DNA of 64,000 bases from NCBI GenBank assembly GCA_903895595.1, contig CAITUP010000064.1, forward strand, positions 1 to 64,000. The letters run 5' to 3'. This DNA comes from an uncultured Acetobacteraceae bacterium. Lineage in GTDB: Bacteria; Pseudomonadota; Alphaproteobacteria; Acetobacterales; Acetobacteraceae. The position numbers and the translations under genes were made by a program. Under the pieces are notes generated by a model. The model searched no databases. It was not told the origin of the DNA and worked only from the letters and a program-made list of their open reading frames with translations. Positions 5,556-37,915 of the stretch are shown piece after piece; positions within the stretch are counted from its first letter, which is position 1, and every line of letters begins with the position of its first letter.

Positions 5556-6494
5556 TCAGCCGCGCGAACCTCGGCGTTCAGACTCCCGTAACTCGATAAT
5601 ATCTTTATACAAATCCATCGTCGCCGGCACGTACCCGACCCCCACGCCTTGCTCCAGCGAGTCATAGATATCCTTATGCGACGCCGGTAAATCCGTCATG
5701 ATCGCGACAAAGGCCTGCTTCAAATCCGCCGGCAAGGCCGAACGCATCGCCCAGGGACCGTTCGGAATTTTGCCCGATGTCCAGATGATCCGCACATCGG
5801 ACATTTTCAGCATGCCCTTGGCCACCATCGATCGCAGATTGCCGCGCGAATACCCCTGCGCGATATCGCCCTGCCCCGACGTCCAGGTCACGGCGGCATC
5901 GAATTGCCGGTTGAGCACCGCGACGATCCCTTGCTCATGGCCGCCCGCGAAACCGGTGCGGCTGAAATAGGCGCCGTCGGCCATGTCGATGCCCCGCAGC
6001 TTCATCGTCGCCCGCGGGATCAGATAGCCGGAGGCCGAATTCGGGTCGGCGAAAGCCAGAGAATGACCCCTCATCCCCTCGATGGAGGTAATCCCGGAAT
6101 CCGCCCGGACCACCATCGCGGAAACGTAATAGACGGAGCCATCGGCCTCCCGCGGCACGATCAACGGCTCCACGCATTTGCAATCGAGCCAAGCTCCGGC
6201 GAAGGCGGACGGGCTGAACTCCGACACGTCCACCTGCCCCGCGGCCATCGCCTGCATCACCCCGGCGTAGTCGGCGGCGGGAAACAGCTTGATCGTCACG
6301 CCAAGCTTTTCCCGCAACAGAGTCTGAAACCCATCGTACCGGCGCAACCGGTCCTGCGTGTTTTCCCCGCCGAGCAGACCGATGCGCAATTCCTTGACAT
6401 GGGCGTGCCAATCGTCGGCACGGCTGGCCGTTGGCAGAAGCAAGCCTATAACGGGGATGGCAACGAATGCCACGCGCCGGCCCCACTCCGTCAT
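5556..6494 (-). CDS. phnD: Phosphonate/phosphate-type ABC transporter substrate-binding protein PhnD
   Basis: Periplasmic binding protein of the PhnD family (312 residues from the chosen start). It has a signal peptide (RRVAFVAIPVIGLLLPTASRA) and the family core from ELRIGLLGGENTQDRLRRYD onward. The frame is open to 6689. A strictly palindromic 84-bp repeat (6489-6572) lies inside the 5' part of that frame. If translation starts at the ATG at 6494, that codon is supplied by the repeat. If it starts at the ATG at 6644, directly after phnC, the repeat is translated as 28 extra residues ahead of the signal peptide. The first option gives the better signal peptide, but neither start has a good ribosome site. 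The protein delivers ligand to PhnE1/E2. Confidence 0.88.
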   Translation of the reverse strand: MTEWGRRVAFVAIPVIGLLLPTASRADDWHAHVKELRIGLLGGENTQDRLRRYDGFQTLLREKLGVTIKLFPAADYAGVMQAMAAGQVDVSEFSPSAFAGAWLDCKCVEPLIVPREADGSVYYVSAMVVRADSGITSIEGMRGHSLAFADPNSASGYLIPRATMKLRGIDMADGAYFSRTGFAGGHEQGIVAVLNRQFDAAVTWTSGQGDIAQGYSRGNLRSMVAKGMLKMSDVRIIWTSGKIPNGPWAMRSALPADLKQAFVAIMTDLPASHKDIYDSLEQGVGVGYVPATMDLYKDIIELRESERRGSRG

Positions 6495-6572
6495 GCCGAC
6501 GCAGGTCGGCATCCACGACTTGCGATGCTCGGGCCGGCGCAGTCGTGGATGCCGACCTGCGTCGGCATGACG
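6489..6572. repeat. 84-bp perfect palindromic repeat inside the phnD reading frame
   Basis: Two 32-bp arms (6489-6520 and 6541-6572) are perfect reverse complements around a 20-base loop. They begin CGTCATGCCGACGCAGGTCG. A near copy lies at 28956-29038 and a one-arm copy at 28863-28890. Because 84 is a multiple of three and the element contains no stop in the phnD frame, it leaves the frame open. The translated core reads HADAGRHPRL and MPTCVGM. Confidence 0.9.
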
Positions 6573-6651
6573 GGTATGCGCGGACATCGCCGAAATCGCA
6601 GCGCCGATTGCCCGAAAGACATGCGAAAAGCAGGGCACGATCATTCTCCGT

Positions 6652-7434
6652 TCAGGGGTGTTCGGCGACATCGTCGCCATAGATGGCATGCAGCACGTCC
6701 TCGGTCAGCCCCTCCGGCGGGCCGTCGAACACGATCCTGCCCGCCGACATGCCGATGATGCGGCGGCAATAAGCCCGCGCGGTGTCCAGCGTATGCAGAT
6801 TGACCAGCACGGTGATGCCGTCGGTCCGGTTGATATCCAGCAGCGCATCCATCACCGCCTTGGCGTTGACGGGATCGAGCGACGAAATCGGCTCATCGGC
6901 CAGCAGCATCGCCGGTTCCTGCAGCAACGCCCGAGCAATCGCCACCCGTTGCTGCTGCCCCCCCGACAGCGCGTCCGCTCGTTTCAGCGCGACCTCCGCC
7001 AGACCGAAGCGATCCAGGGTGCGGATCGCCAGTACCCGCTCGGCGGGCGTGAACCGCTTGAACAGCACGCGCCACGCGGACATGTGGTTCAGCCGGCCGC
7101 ACAGCACGTTGGTCAGCACATCCAGCCGGTTCACCAGGTTGAACTGCTGGAAAATCATGGCCGTCCGCGCCCGCCACGCCCGCAGCGCCGCCCCGCGCAG
7201 GGCGGTCACGTCAACACCGTCGGCGACGATGCGGCCGGAAGAAGGCTCGATCAGGCGGTTGATCAGCCGCAGCAAGGTGGACTTGCCGGCACCCGAGCGG
7301 CCGATGATGCCCACCATCTCCCCGCGCACGATCGTCAGATCGGCCCCGGCGACGGCCAAGGTATCGCCGAAGCGTCGGCTGAGTTGGACGAGTTGCAGCA
7401 CGAAAATCCTGTCGTTGGGCGGCAGCGGCGTCAT
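6652..7434 (-). CDS. phnC: Phosphonate/phosphate-type ABC transporter ATP-binding protein PhnC
   Basis: A 260-residue ABC ATPase. It shows Walker [10 protein letters not shown], a Q-loop (FQQFNLV), the signature LSGGQQQR and Walker B MLLADEP, followed by the H-loop region VLVNLHTLD. Length and motifs fit PhnC, the ATPase of phosphonate-type importers. It is the first gene of the phnC-D-E1-E2 operon. It starts 3 bases after the stop of the upstream WcbI gene, so it may also be read from that upstream transcript. No C-P lyase genes are visible in the window, so the system may import a phosphorus compound that is processed elsewhere. Confidence 0.9.
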
Positions 7435-24302: not shown

Positions 24303-24379
<77 letters not shown>

Positions 24380-33713: not shown

Positions 33714-35780
33714 TCAGGCGGGGATGCCGGCGCCGATCAGGTGTTCCACATACAGCGCCCGCCGCGCGGCATCGTGGAACGGCCAACGCTCCAACATGCG
33801 GGTAGCTTTGAACCCAGGATCGAGCTGCTTGGCCCTTCCCGCCATCTCGCTTGCTTCCTCTACGCGGCCCAAGGCGAACAACGACGCAGCAGTGAGACGC
33901 AAGTTGGAAGTGTAACGCGGGTTGGCGTAGTATGACAGATTTCCCCAATGGGACGCCTCGTCGTACGCCTTGCGGGCATAGTAAGCGATGCACAGGAAAT
34001 GGTAGGTTCTAAAAACAAAAGGATCGCGCGGCGATAACCGTAGCGCCCGAGCCGCCAGACGCTCGGCCTCATAGCTTTCGCCGATGTACGCGCGTGTGGG
34101 GCTGCTCCAAAGCAACACCTCGGCGTCGTTGGGAGTCATCTCCAAGGCGCGATTGGTCAATCTCACAGCCTCGGCGTGGTCCCGTTCGTAAACCGTCTTC
34201 CCATTGCCAAGCAGCGCCAACGCACGTGCGTTGCTGCTATCGAGCCTCACGGCGGCATTTGCGCAACGGTTCAGCGTTCGCACATCCAGGGCTGGATCCT
34301 CCGACCAACCTTGCCCGAGACGGAGACTGTACCATCCGGCCAGCGCACCATGCGCGGCGGCATATCCGGGTTCGAGTGAGATAGCTTGGCGTAACAGACG
34401 CCCTGCCTGATCGAAGCTCTCCGGTTCCAGCCGGAAGATCAGATCGCGGGCCTCCAATGTCAGATGATAGACACTGAGGTCATGCGGCCGTTGCAGACGG
34501 ATACGTTGAAGCTCCGCCTCATGCACGCGCGGTGCGAGCGAGTTGACGATCTGCTCGACGATCCGGTCTTGCGCGTCGAACAACATCCCGTCTTCGGCGT
34601 CGAAAGCATGTGCCCAATGCACCGCGCGGGTGGCGGCATCGGCCAGCTCCACCGACAACCGTAACCCTCGTCCAGTCGATCGTGCGGTCCCGGACACTAC
34701 ATATTGTACGCCGAGTTCGCGTTCGACGCGCCGCGGATCGGTGCCGCCTGTCGGAAACATACGGGTCGAGTTGCTGGATATCACGATCAGTTCCCGCACC
34801 CCTGCCAAGGTGCGGACGATATCCTCGGTCAACCCATCCGCGAGATAGGAGGGAACCGTATCCGGCCCCACGGTCCGAAACGGCATGACGGCAATCCACG
34901 GCGGGCCGCCGCCACGCGTCGGCTCGGGTGTGGCACGGACGATTGGGGCGACCGTCGGTGCCACGTCGAATTCGCCTTGCTTGATCGCCGCGACGAGCGC
35001 CTGTGTCGCCGCCGAGGGCTCCATGTCGAAATCTTCGCCCAGATGACTGTAAAGCGCATCGTAAGCCCGCAACGCCGCCCCGGTCTCCCCTTCCTCGGCA
35101 GCGCACCGCATAACGGTACGGCATGCTTCCTCATTCGCGGGGTCTTGCAGCAAAGCCGCTTCAGCAAGCGTCCGACGCTGGCGCCGGGGTATCCGAGAAT
35201 CCCGGAAGGCGTTCGTCAAAGCCCGCAACAACCGGTCGTTCGCATTTTGCCGGCGTGTACTGACCCATTCGCTAAAACTGGGGTCGAGGTCGTCGAGGCC
35301 GGCCAGCAGGACGTCCATCAATCTGACATCGCGCGGCACCAGTCCCAATTCGCCGCGTTCGAGCTCGGCCACCATCTCGGCCGTATCCACCTCGAAAGTA
35401 CCTGGCCGCAATCCGACCGTCAGACGGCCCGCCACCAGCGCATTGCAACCAGCCGCAATCAGGGCCTGACGGGTCTCATGCACCGCCTGACGCAACGTCG
35501 CCTGCGCGCGCGATTGTTCCGATTCGCTCCAGAGCAAGCCCGTCAAACGTTCCCGGCTCTCCTCCGGCGGATTATTCAAAGCCAACACCGCCAGCATGGC
35601 GCGGGCCTTGCGGTTCGGCAGAGGCACATCCTGCCCTTCGAACGACAGAAAAACCCCACCGGTCAGGCTGATACGCAGCGTACCGCAATCCGGCGCGATC
35701 TGATCCTGGACCCGAGACACCGAGTCCTGGAACGTCTGGAGGTCATGATATCGTTCGCCGACCGCCGGAATGTGATTCAT
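33714..35780 (-). CDS. SARP-like transcriptional regulator (winged helix + BTAD, TolB-like and TPR regions)
   Basis: A 688-residue regulator. Residues about 37-135 are an OmpR-type winged helix (LRISLTGGVFLSFEGQDVPL, then RKARAMLAVLAL and a basic recognition region around SRAQATLRQAVHETRQALIA). Residues 140-275 are a bacterial transcriptional activation domain (MDVLLAGLDDLDPSFSEWVS). Residues about 295-430 are a TolB/FlgO-like domain (WIAVMPFRTVGPDTV, SYLADGLTEDIVRTL, ELGVQYVVSGTARSTG). TPR-like repeats fill the rest. SARP-type proteins activate natural-product genes through 11-bp-spaced repeats, and two such boxes lie just upstream. It is divergent from the repeat-peptide gene and is the likely regulator of that locus. 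Confidence 0.85.
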   Translation of the reverse strand: MNHIPAVGERYHDLQTFQDSVSRVQDQIAPDCGTLRISLTGGVFLSFEGQDVPLPNRKARAMLAVLALNNPPEESRERLTGLLWSESEQSRAQATLRQAVHETRQALIAAGCNALVAGRLTVGLRPGTFEVDTAEMVAELERGELGLVPRDVRLMDVLLAGLDDLDPSFSEWVSTRRQNANDRLLRALTNAFRDSRIPRRQRRTLAEAALLQDPANEEACRTVMRCAAEEGETGAALRAYDALYSHLGEDFDMEPSAATQALVAAIKQGEFDVAPTVAPIVRATPEPTRGGGPPWIAVMPFRTVGPDTVPSYLADGLTEDIVRTLAGVRELIVISSNSTRMFPTGGTDPRRVERELGVQYVVSGTARSTGRGLRLSVELADAATRAVHWAHAFDAEDGMLFDAQDRIVEQIVNSLAPRVHEAELQRIRLQRPHDLSVYHLTLEARDLIFRLEPESFDQAGRLLRQAISLEPGYAAAHGALAGWYSLRLGQGWSEDPALDVRTLNRCANAAVRLDSSNARALALLGNGKTVYERDHAEAVRLTNRALEMTPNDAEVLLWSSPTRAYIGESYEAERLAARALRLSPRDPFVFRTYHFLCIAYYARKAYDEASHWGNLSYYANPRYTSNLRLTAASLFALGRVEEASEMAGRAKQLDPGFKATRMLERWPFHDAARRALYVEHLIGAGIPA

Positions 35781-35810
35781 TTGCTATACACCGGTCCTCA
35801 ACCCTACCGA

Positions 35811-35880
35811 CTCACGATGGACTCACGCTGGCGTGAAGTCAAACCCATTTCAACCGCAAGACCTCACGGTGGAATCACGC
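35811..35880. promoter_or_regulatory. Two SARP-style boxes with 11-bp periodicity
   Basis: CTCACGATGGACTCACGC (35811-35828) and CTCACGGTGGAATCACGC (35863-35880) match at 16 of 18 positions. Each contains TCACG twice with an 11-base step, the spacing SARP and OmpR-type winged helices recognise. They lie in the 173-base gap between the divergent regulator and peptide genes. The first box runs into a near palindrome (GACTCACGC-TG-GCGTGAAGTC). No convincing -35/-10 pair is visible. Confidence 0.55.
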
Positions 35881-35953
35881 ATGATCAGCGATGGTTGCAC
35901 ATCGGCGCCGGGCATTTCGCCTTAGGGTTGCCACTGAACAGGGGATTACGGGG

Positions 35954-36148
35954 ATGACAAACAACAAGCGCATCGTTCGCACGCAACCCAGCGCGATCCG
36001 CGTGATCCGGACGCCGGAAAACGTGGCGACGCAAACCCAGACCGACGGCGCCTTTCAAATCGGCGACGGTGGCTGCATCTATCGCTTCGGCGACGGTGGC
36101 TGCATCTATCGCTTCGGCGACGGCGGCTGCATCTCCCGCTTCGGCTGA
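35954..36148 (+). CDS. Small repeat peptide, candidate ribosomally made natural-product precursor
   Basis: A 64-residue peptide. Residues 1-36 (MTNNKRIVRTQPSAIRVIRT, then PENVATQTQTDGAFQI) resemble a leader: polar, basic at the start, and with no signal peptide. Residues 37-63 are three 9-residue units, GDGGCIYRF, GDGGCIYRF and GDGGCISRF, and the peptide closes with Gly64. Each unit has one Cys and one or no Tyr. The first two units are identical in DNA and the third differs at two bases in total. An AGGGG site sits about nine bases before the ATG. It lies 24 bases before a DUF6065-like gene and opposite a SARP-like regulator. Leader plus tandem core repeats is the pattern of RiPP precursors, but no classical modifying enzyme is adjacent. 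Confidence 0.75.
   Translation: MTNNKRIVRTQPSAIRVIRTPENVATQTQTDGAFQIGDGGCIYRFGDGGCIYRFGDGGCISRFG
36062..36142 (+). repeat. Three tandem 27-bp repeats encoding GDGGCI(Y/S)RF
   Basis: Units at 36062-36088, 36089-36115 and 36116-36142. Units 1 and 2 are identical. Unit 3 has GGC for GGT (silent) and TCC for TAT (Tyr to Ser). The identity at DNA level suggests recent duplication or gene conversion within the core region. Confidence 0.95.
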
Positions 36149-36171
36149 GGCCAAATGGGGACACGACGGAT

Positions 36172-36972
36172 ATGGAACGCGGGCAGGATCCACTGATTAC
36201 CTTCTACCGGATGCTGCCCGGTGCTCCACAACCGAAGCGAGCGAGGCTCGACGCCGGCGGGACGCTGCCAACAGCCGCCTACCGCTATTGCGAACCATCA
36301 CGCCTCGCATCCGCTTTCGGCTACTACATCTTCCTGCCGACCTCGTTCCAGGTGGAATGGGACGGCGGCACCGGCGGTCTTTGGTCCTTCGACGACGGCG
36401 ACCATTGGTACCCGCTGAACGAGACAGCGTACCCGAACAGCATGGCGGATTTCGATGCCGTCGCGCCGGGACCCTGCAAGGGCTTCTGCCCCTCCTTTCT
36501 AACCTTCACGGTCGATCATGCCCTGCTCCAGGTCTGGACCGGCTGGTTCGTGCGCACCGCGCCGGGCTACAGCATCCTGGTCCGCGGCCCCGCCAACCTC
36601 ACCCGCCCCGCGGGGTACGAGGTGCTGGAGGGAATCATCGAGACCGACTCCTGGTTCGGCCCGCTGTTCACCAACATCCGCTTCACCCGCTCGGACGTAC
36701 CCATCCTGTTCGATAACACGCGGCCGTTCCTGCAGGTCCAGGCGTTGAACCGCGCCATCTATGCGGAGGAGCTGCAAAAGAACTTCGTCGTGGAGGACGC
36801 CACCGCGATCCCGCCGGAGTTGTGGAAAGCCTACGAGGAAAGCCTCATCGACCCGATCGTCCGCAACCCCGAGCAGGCCCATTACGCGAAGACCGCTCGG
36901 CGACGGCGGGCGAGCGAGGCCGCCGCCTGCCCGTGGCCCGGACATGCCGCGACGCCCGGTCATGAGTCTTGA
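36172..36972 (+). CDS. DUF6065-like protein, partner of the repeat peptide
   Basis: A 266-residue soluble protein that I believe belongs to the DUF6065 family, from memory of its layout. It shows PTAAYRYCEPSRLASAFGYY, then FLPTSFQVEWDGG, FDAVAPGPCKGFCPSFLTFT, VWTGWFVRTAPGYSILVRGP and DSWFGPLFTNIRFTR. The family has no assigned reaction. Conserved Cys, His and Trp residues and its place directly after the peptide gene (23-base gap) make it the best candidate for a maturation or binding partner. The C-terminal 30 residues are basic and low-complexity. The last 11 bases overlap the exporter gene. Confidence 0.7.
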   Translation: MERGQDPLITFYRMLPGAPQPKRARLDAGGTLPTAAYRYCEPSRLASAFGYYIFLPTSFQVEWDGGTGGLWSFDDGDHWYPLNETAYPNSMADFDAVAPGPCKGFCPSFLTFTVDHALLQVWTGWFVRTAPGYSILVRGPANLTRPAGYEVLEGIIETDSWFGPLFTNIRFTRSDVPILFDNTRPFLQVQALNRAIYAEELQKNFVVEDATAIPPELWKAYEESLIDPIVRNPEQAHYAKTARRRRASEAAACPWPGHAATPGHES

Positions 36973-37915
36973 TTATCGCCTGCCGCATTTGGCACTGGAT
37001 TCGGCGGTCATAACCGAGTCCGTCCTCGACCGGATGCGCCGCATGCGCGGTATCGTCTACTATCTGTGCCTTAACGCCGCGATGCTCGTGGACGCTTCAG
37101 TCGTCCACCGACTCGGAACCAAGATTTCCGTCGTTCAGATGTGCCTGATTCGCGGCATCGGAGTCGGACTCCTGGTGCTTGTCCTATCGCGCGGCCAGGG
37201 CTTGTCGGTGTTTCGCACCCAAATGCCCCTCGCCCAGATCGGCCGAGGCTGCCTGAACCTGGTGTCCTTCTGGGCCATCTTCTACGCTCTGGCCCATCTC
37301 CTGCTCGCGGATGCATCGGCGATAAACTACTCCCGCGCCCTGTTCATGACCTTGTTGGGGGTCTGGTGGTTCGGGGAGAAAGTCGGCCGCTGGCGCTGGA
37401 CCACGATCATCCTGAGCTATGTCGGCGCGTTGGTGATTGTCAGCCCCGGATTCTCCCAATGGAACCCGGTGTATTTGGTCGCACTCGCGGGTGCCGCACT
37501 GAATGCGACGGCCATGGCGGGGACGAAACGCCTGACCGAAACCGACGGTGCCCAGACGACTCTGGCATACACTGCGGCCGTCGCCTTGGTGCTGTCGTTA
37601 CCGGCGCTCTGGGAAAACTGGCCGTGGCATGACCCGCTGTTCCTGGTGCTTGCCGTCAGCGGCGCCGCGACCGTGCACTTCGGCCAACAGGCCATGCGCT
37701 ACGCCGACATGTCGCTGCTCGCCCCCTATGACTACCTGCGCCTGCCGCTGGTGATCCTGGTCGGCTTCGTGTTCTTCCATGAAGTGCCCGGTGTCGCCAC
37801 CTGGGGGGGCGCAGTGCTGATCGTCCTGTCCGGCGTGTTGCTCTGGGTGCGGGAGACCAAGCGAGTCCTCGTGCGCAATCCTGCCGTTGCCTCGGACTCC
37901 ACCCCCCGCCTATAA
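36962..37915 (+). CDS. EamA/DMT-family membrane exporter
   Basis: A 317-residue drug/metabolite transporter with about ten membrane segments in two EamA halves (for example NLVSFWAIFYALAHLLLADA and GGAVLIVLSGVLLWV). The second half includes HFGQQAMRYADMSLLAPYDY, common in this family. It starts inside the 3' end of the DUF6065-like gene (11-base overlap), so it is translated with it. Export of a small product of the peptide locus is a reasonable inference. DMT carriers of amino acids and nucleosides are an alternative. Confidence 0.82.
   Translation: MSLDYRLPHLALDSAVITESVLDRMRRMRGIVYYLCLNAAMLVDASVVHRLGTKISVVQMCLIRGIGVGLLVLVLSRGQGLSVFRTQMPLAQIGRGCLNLVSFWAIFYALAHLLLADASAINYSRALFMTLLGVWWFGEKVGRWRWTTIILSYVGALVIVSPGFSQWNPVYLVALAGAALNATAMAGTKRLTETDGAQTTLAYTAAVALVLSLPALWENWPWHDPLFLVLAVSGAATVHFGQQAMRYADMSLLAPYDYLRLPLVILVGFVFFHEVPGVATWGGAVLIVLSGVLLWVRETKRVLVRNPAVASDSTPRL

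Follow-up and report, generated by a model that had tools for sequence, protein, structure and literature searches.

The window, a stretch of 64,000 nucleotides (nt) of contig CAITUP010000064.1 from an uncultured Acetobacteraceae bacterium, carries a compact locus in which a short peptide with three tandem repeats is encoded before a protein of the DUF6065 family. This locus is one copy of a recurring, conserved module, in which the gene of a repeat peptide is followed on the same strand by a gene of a diverged DUF6065 clade, labelled "type B" in this analysis. In the window, a gene for a large regulator diverges from the peptide gene, and a gene for an EamA-family transporter follows that of the DUF6065 protein.

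We propose that the module works in the manner of the ribosomally synthesized and post-translationally modified peptides (RiPPs); this is its most likely mode of action, although it lies outside every known RiPP class tested. A dedicated regulator with BTAD and TPR regions, resembling the Streptomyces antibiotic regulatory proteins (SARPs), would activate the operon. The first gene would encode a short and disordered precursor, whose C-terminal side carries the core in one copy or in many, and the second a type-B DUF6065 protein of dUTPase fold that would recognise a V-R-Φ-G core, where Φ is hydrophobic. This partner would most likely modify chemically, or process, each core copy, and in the window's clade only, the EamA protein would export the product. 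Taken as a whole, this reading, which combines a multi-core, RiPP-like precursor, a dUTPase-fold partner and a controlling regulator, has, to our mind, an even chance of being correct.

Association of the repeat peptide with type-B DUF6065

The Pfam profile of DUF6065, PF19541, matched in 87 of 299 genomes sampled from the window's order (81 over the cut-off). The matches split into a canonical set and a diverged set that scores mostly over profile positions 84–170. Among 28 canonical loci that were examined, 27 have matches over nearly the whole profile, at 290–348 bits, and one (L031) is partial, at 135 bits. The window protein reaches 58.7 bits against a cut-off of 26.6, in agreement with its earlier identification as DUF6065-like, and its strongest stretch covers positions 84–165 of 236. 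Judged by its sequence, it belongs to type B. The type-B set of 142 loci was assembled from 60 stretches around type-B genes, the two loci of the window's genome and 80 more, taken as the best of 265 confirmed relatives. Removal of duplicates left 128 (the copies L001, L002, L032 and L033 had been excluded earlier), and the counts given here describe these samples.

At least 700 nt of upstream DNA is available at 100 of the type-B loci. A same-strand repeat open reading frame (ORF) with a repeat score of at least 7 lies upstream of the type-B gene in 72 of them, and another 17 have one motif copy or degenerate copies (11 recognised by a pattern and six judged by eye, one of the six N-masked). 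When the 730 nt downstream were scored in the same way on the better strand, none of 97 control regions contained such an ORF. The association is specific to type B, since no such peptide was seen at the 28 canonical DUF6065 loci, or at 26 loci of other weak relatives (three of which overlap others), within flanks of about 1.5 kb on each side. The window itself (L196) was not counted in this comparison, and the high repeat scores at L021, L022, L190 and L195 were found by eye to be due to low complexity or other frames. The remaining 28 type-B genes, set aside from the upstream count, have less than 700 nt of contig before them. Assemblies may break at tandem repeats, and repeat copy numbers could therefore be underestimates.

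The same association emerges when the peptide is taken as the starting point. A DNA pattern built from the peptide alone matched in four of 385 genomes of the class. In two of these (G852 and G941) the peptide stands beside a type-B DUF6065 gene; in G764 the sequence ends about 100 nt past the peptide, and in G310 the match lies outside such an ORF. The search for repeat peptides elsewhere, as suggested in the original prediction, thus led to type-B DUF6065 in two of the four matching genomes. The co-occurrence of such peptides with DUF6065 and SARP genes, which it had offered as a check, is borne out for the diverged type-B clade and fails for canonical DUF6065 (0 of 28 loci). A peptide-first search of genome contigs with the window peptide itself gave 94 pattern stretches and no relative confirmed by tblastn.

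An annotated counterpart is found in Rhizobium sp. WSM4643, where a protein of 83 residues, annotated as hypothetical and containing VHIANKSP(A/M)F three times, is encoded 16 bp before an annotated "DUF6065 family protein". Two hypothetical genes (L227:5864-6879) follow DUF6065 there, one of them with a match resembling the major facilitator superfamily (MFS), slightly below the cut-off. The module also occurs in Reyranella, Sneathiella, Roseobacteraceae and beta- and gamma-proteobacterial assemblies, beside many genomes of the window's order. The window's own genome has two PF19541 matches. The second of them lies on a different contig (L003) and is likewise preceded directly by a short repeat peptide; the repeats of the two pairs differ from each other. 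At L003, about 1.1 kb separate the DUF6065 gene from the sole dUTPase gene found in this genome (6521-6964 and 8080-8865), which may be a coincidence.

A tree of the 128 type-B proteins places the window in one group with L100, L048 and L050 (support 100/99). These closest relatives retain the gene order of the window, with similar peptides in the corresponding place, which is more than chance would give. The DUF6065 protein of L100, from another uncultured Acetobacteraceae, is 77% identical to that of the window; its gene (6001-6775) is frame-broken in the metagenome-assembled genome. The protein is absent from parts A2 and A4 of this analysis and is represented in the tree by its open piece of 145 amino acids (aa). 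Two type-B genes labelled as Actinomycetota (L135, Solirubrobacterales) and Myxococcota (L125, Polyangiaceae) fall among proteobacterial ones in the tree, through contamination or transfer. Five of 72,556 plasmid records matched, two from Rhizobium at 38% identity over 89% and three more weakly, and the match on a Niveispirillum plasmid (L228) is, by eye, a canonical-looking DUF6065. A phage origin was considered and rejected, since tblastn with the DUF6065 protein gave no match in phage records and the only trace is a weak match to phrog_7084, of unknown function (E 3e-4), a family that 16 of 32 type-B proteins match weakly. Two canonical proteins are fused to a Cupin_8/JmjC-like hydroxylase domain (L022:1426-3171 and L021:556-2265), a hint that the wider DUF6065 family is linked to hydroxylases.

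In principle, a small gene before a partner gene could represent a toxin–antitoxin or defence pair whose two products neutralise each other, and several DUF6065 matches in some genomes would agree with this. However, PADLOC gave no match for the four window proteins, the phage records hold no tblastn match to the DUF6065 protein, and a variable repeat number with a large regulator nearby is unlike such pairs. We consider this explanation very improbable.

Repeat units and the predicted fold of the partner

Taken over the 106 loci at which the motif was anchored, the repeats have a consensus of approximately D-x-G-[KR]-V-R-[LIM]-G-[GA]-[GM]-[AS]-P-[AT]-[FL], in which the search pattern itself imposes the core Gly. 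The core that they have in common is V-R-Φ-G-(G/A/D), often preceded by D-x-G-[KR]. Each peptide contains from 1 to 18 copies, and by eye the final copy is mostly at or close to the C-terminus. The window belongs to a divergent subgroup, with YRFGDGG in the window, FRFGAGM in L048, FRFGSG in L050 (units QFRFGSG) and FRFGDGG in L100, whose peptide of 67 aa has FRFGDGG and FRYGDGG units. Read by eye, the GDGGCI(Y/S)RF unit of the window appears to be a variant that has diverged from the core of the family. The original prediction had proposed a search for GDGGC repeat peptides, but GDGGC with its Cys is not what the family conserves. In relatives, the residue at the position of the window's Cys is, by eye, I, F, Y, A, Q or M, and a Cys recurs nearby in L059 and L092. 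Since the position is not conserved, we rejected Cys chemistry as unlikely to be a common theme.

The peptides of the window's clade share a RIVRTQP-like N-terminal segment before the C-terminal repeats; by eye, several other peptides are almost leaderless. In the window, an alternative, longer ORF of 85 aa (35891-36148) is available for the peptide, but its start is less likely than that of the 64-aa form because the L048 and L100 peptides begin at about the 64-aa position. Pfam and NCBIfam scans of the peptides gave scattered matches and no consistent family. Two matches of L154, to DUF3299 (Pfam, over the cut-off) and to a J25-type lasso peptide (NCBIfam, 23 bits, at the cut-off), were discarded as artefacts of the repeats, arising from summed repeats only.

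Are these repeats translated? Neighbouring copies were compared in the 49 peptides that have three or more anchored copies at a main spacing (L111, L145, L150 and L151 being poorly registered). When pooled, they differ by 0.296 per synonymous site (pS) and by 0.102 per nonsynonymous site (pN), and pN is lower than pS in 46 of the 49. Because the differences between copies are mostly synonymous per site, the repeats are translated and constrained in the relatives. The original prediction would have been refuted by a peptide frame that was unconserved or untranslated, and this result largely contradicts that possibility. The nearly identical DNA of the window's repeats is uninformative on this point and would be compatible with repeat DNA lying in a chance frame that is no gene at all. 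However, the constraint seen in the peptide frame, the motif common to many families and the annotated homologue in Rhizobium make that idea scarcely credible.

The AlphaFold2 model of the window DUF6065 protein, built with 66 sequences, has a predicted local distance difference test (pLDDT) score of 89.7 and a predicted template modelling (TM) score of 0.83. In a Foldseek comparison of the model with the PDB, all eight matches at E ≤ 0.001 are dUTPases, the best being 3ecy (E 1.2e-4, TM 0.75 by target length). The best viral structural matches are uncharacterised or unnamed proteins, several of them from phages (Caudovirales), and dUTPases rank lower among them. No match to the Pfam dUTPase family (PF00692) was obtained at E 0.1, and a PDB sequence search with the protein returned nothing (best E 0.85). 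When aligned by eye, dUTPase motifs 2–4 register with VRxPANL, EGIIETD and PxLQxQ, so that N142 takes the place of the motif-2 Ser and E157-x-D159 that of the motif-3 acids, while the motif-1 Asp is replaced by Gly and the glycine-rich C-terminal motif is absent. We thus predict, on the basis of the model, a dUTPase-like fold for type-B DUF6065. It is tempting to go further and to propose that type-B DUF6065 is the founding family of dUTPase-fold peptide-modifying enzymes that act on V-R-Φ-G-(G/A) tandem cores, possibly by nucleotide chemistry at the E-x-D site, and that it defines a new class of proteobacterial ribosomal peptides, exported in some clades and placed under SARP-like regulators. 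This extension is tentative, and we regard it as somewhat doubtful.

The main rival to the RiPP-like reading is a multivalent scaffold, in which each motif of a disordered repeat peptide binds one dUTPase-fold DUF6065 protein and an assembly forms without chemical modification. Because dUTPases are mostly trimers, they would suit multivalent binding. Likewise, the repeat period is regular (mostly 14–29 residues), with near-identical copies in many multi-copy peptides. In an AlphaFold model of peptide and DUF6065 protein from L144 joined in one chain, the peptide is mostly below a pLDDT of 50. This disorder would suit a scaffold, but the peptide is also unstructured and undocked in the model, which speaks against one. 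In fact, the joined chain is weak evidence either way, since few rows of its alignment covered the peptide. Peptides with one anchored copy (23 of 106) or two (33 of 106) would make a poor scaffold, and the adjoining EamA gene in the window's clade suggests a released product. We therefore judge a scaffold rather unlikely, and retain the RiPP-like reading as the working one.

Regulators, intergenic RNA and the window locus

Sixty proteins related to the window regulator are encoded near 58 of the 128 type-B loci, a number that is probably a lower bound because contigs are often short. The window regulator retrieves 59 of the 60, itself included, at E 1e-3. Their genes lie upstream and divergent at 22 loci, upstream and co-directional at 12, and downstream at 24. 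At E 0.001, Pfam identifies BTAD in 39 of the proteins, Trans_reg_C in 15 and TPR_19 in 31, with other TPR families fewer; odd members include one histidine-kinase-like protein, one Crp-like protein and two with a cyclase domain. The window regulator itself matches BTAD at 47.7 bits (Pfam cut-off 22.1); its TPR matches are slightly below threshold and its Trans_reg_C match (15.1 bits, E 0.024) is below the Pfam cut-off. There are six BTAD matches in the window's whole genome. The original view that a SARP-like regulator belongs to the locus thus holds in so far as related regulators recur near the module, and is narrowed in that not all of them are BTAD proteins.

Upstream of the window peptide gene, the sequence TCACG occurs at 35812, 35823, 35864 and 35875, as two pairs with 11-bp spacing, and the pairs fall within a direct repeat of 31 nt whose copies are 52 nt apart. 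SARPs bind direct repeats spaced by 11 bp. Among TCAC pairs in 91 upstream regions, 11 bp is the commonest spacing (10 pairs in eight loci, all with a regulator of the related group in view), followed by 20 and 21 bp (seven each), and spacings other than 11 and 22 bp average 1.5. In 85 downstream control regions no pair was found at 11 bp, and the commonest spacing has five. We propose that these operator-like repeats are a candidate operator of the window regulator.

The regulators bear on a further explanation, in which the repeats are cut into short signals that the TPR part of the regulator senses, directly or indirectly, with the DUF6065 protein maturing or holding the signal. Many of the 60 regulators match TPR families and yet vary in their output parts, as though a common sensor had been retained; moreover, operator-like repeats precede the window peptide gene, and many near-identical copies recall pheromone precursors. 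On the other hand, large BTAD regulators commonly have TPR regions in any case, the placement of the regulator gene varies, no protease is encoded among the genes scanned, and no sign of peptide uptake was seen. We find peptide signalling unlikely, and return to the RiPP-like reading.

Stable RNA structure lies between the peptide and DUF6065 genes in many loci. In 95 of 106 gaps (those of at least 45 nt without N, using the first 160 nt), the mean z score of folding is −2.0, and 44 gaps fall below −2. The controls gave a mean z of 0.04 for coding DNA (4 of 95 below −2) and of −0.8 for the region upstream of the peptide (16 of 81). Precursor operons often carry intergenic RNA structure, which yields more precursor than enzyme.

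An EamA gene follows on the same strand at 12 of the 128 type-B loci, with its start between −43 and +359 nt from the end of DUF6065 in the 11 loci besides the window. It overlaps the DUF6065 end in the window, L048, L050 and L100, that is, in all four members of the window's clade. On the tree, the 12 EamA rows require eight changes, a value reached by 1 of 500 shuffles, in which 11.6 are needed. EamA is therefore clustered and not universal, and the exporter originally counted as part of the locus is a constant of the window's clade and an exception among type-B loci at large. We scanned 36 downstream neighbours with Pfam (35 of the 134 listed, mostly chosen as co-directional, and the window's, so that not every locus was covered); 15 are EamA and seven are GDSL-like. 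A GDSL-like esterase gene takes EamA's position after DUF6065, on the same strand, at L040, L041, L109, L138, L141, L158 and L168.

For the window, the layout described in the original prediction was confirmed: its four adjacent genes have coordinates exact to the base (Table 1), with the 64-residue peptide and its three repeats, the 23-base gap between peptide and DUF6065 genes and the 11-base overlap of DUF6065 and EamA. The three units are GDGGCIYRF (36062-36088), GDGGCIYRF (36089-36115) and GDGGCISRF (36116-36142). The EamA identity also stands (PF00892, 62.3 bits in Pfam, scanned from codon 2), and, as claimed, no LanM, YcaO, radical SAM, MNIO or protease gene appeared among the window genes covered by the Pfam scans. 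The scanned genes around the locus serve ordinary metabolism and transport: MFS transporter genes stand on either side of it, and further ones encode aldo/keto reductases, a ketopantoate reductase-like protein, an amidohydrolase and a pyridoxal-phosphate decarboxylase. Rfam at gathering thresholds gave one match in the window, a tRNA gene at 24306-24379 on the minus strand.

Table 1. Features of the repeat peptide–DUF6065 locus in the window
Feature	Position	Strand	Basis or remark
BTAD/TPR (SARP-like) transcriptional regulator, 688 aa	33714-35780	minus	Pfam BTAD; divergent from peptide gene
Candidate regulator-binding region with TCACG repeats	35798-35880	plus	sequence
Precursor-like peptide, 64 aa	35954-36148	plus	N-terminal segment RIVRTQPSAIR..., repeats, final Gly
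Three 9-residue tandem repeats GDGGCI(Y/S)RF	36062-36142	plus	sequence
Type-B DUF6065 protein, 266 aa	36172-36972	plus	PF19541; predicted dUTPase-like fold
EamA-family (DMT, drug/metabolite) transporter, 317 aa	36962-37915, ATG at 36962	plus	PF00892

Meaning and comparison with known systems

Several observations weigh against the RiPP-like reading. Eleven of the 100 type-B loci with sufficient upstream DNA lack a peptide, most type-B loci lack EamA, and neither a peptidase nor a known RiPP enzyme (LanM, YcaO, radical SAM, MNIO, ATP-grasp and others) was found among the 36 downstream neighbours and the window genes scanned. The window's own repeats (1.5/12 versus 3.5/42) are too alike to show constraint, and its 23-nt gap leaves no room for a hairpin. 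Of the intergenic hairpins counted, just 21 of 89 have a T-rich tail, so that most are not typical terminators. As for the predicted fold, the TM score to 3ecy falls to 0.36 by query length, and an hhalign comparison of profiles, made against 25 dUTPases, did not reach significance (E 0.19), although in register over motifs 2–4. Loosely worded literature searches did not turn up a dUTPase fold that serves in peptide modification. The undocked peptide of the joined chain and the regular, near-identical repeats, both discussed above, belong here as well. Finally, in a phylum-wide sample of 398 genomes, the 21 matching besides the window's genome gave weak, partial matches only (at most 47.4 bits), and type B is thus patchy outside the window's order.

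Set beside these points, the conserved pairing of precursor and partner places a short precursor-like gene next to a putative modifying gene, as in RiPP loci, at the level of adjacency only. The description of the locus as RiPP-like in the original prediction therefore keeps its basis in a conserved precursor–partner module, while the module fits no RiPP class definition tested. It is apparently undescribed, and may be a new route to a peptide product. No mention of DUF6065 was found in the literature searched, and searches with motif strings, WP_170279615 and PF19541 returned antibody papers only, with one motif string each; some searches were poorly worded, and the absence holds for those terms.

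A family of unknown function thus gains a gene context and a tie to a peptide family that is absent from the libraries searched. Modification of the peptide by the dUTPase-fold protein would make the latter a new catalytic scaffold in the production of ribosomal peptides; binding alone would make the pair a new repeat-peptide assembly. Should the partner prove to be a new enzyme, or the peptide a novel assembly, the module would be categorically new. Searches of genomes that set out from known RiPP enzymes would probably overlook it. Since the module can be cloned as two genes, its chemistry is directly testable.

How does the module compare with known systems? The typical SARP/BTAD regulators share with that of the window the BTAD domain and, upstream of its peptide gene, direct repeats (here TCACG) at 11-bp spacing. 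Unlike a typical SARP, the window regulator is large and has a TPR-like region and a weak Trans_reg_C match, and 39 of the 60 relatives have BTAD. With regard to EamA/DMT exporters, the window protein is a clear PF00892 match, and such a gene accompanies 12 of 128 type-B loci. Against canonical DUF6065, the window protein passes the PF19541 cut-off, but type B scores lower and mostly over positions 84–170; the canonical loci have no repeat peptide, and two of them (L021 and L022) have the Cupin_8/JmjC fusion.

The likeness to the dUTPase and dCTP deaminase fold lies in the PDB matches of the predicted model (E ≤ 0.001) and in the by-eye register of motifs 2–4. Unlike dUTPases, the protein has no Pfam match to the family, its profile comparison is not significant, and it has Gly in motif 1 and no glycine-rich C-terminal motif. 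The closest parallel to the module as a whole is with multi-core RiPP precursors of the microviridin, cyanobactin and fungal dikaritin/ustiloxin type. It differs from these in that no known RiPP enzyme or peptidase is present among the genes scanned, the partner has a predicted dUTPase fold, and the type-B core is conserved and not hypervariable. Like them, it has a short gene before that of the partner, one to many cores of variable copy number towards the C-terminus and, in many loci, stable RNA structure between the two genes.

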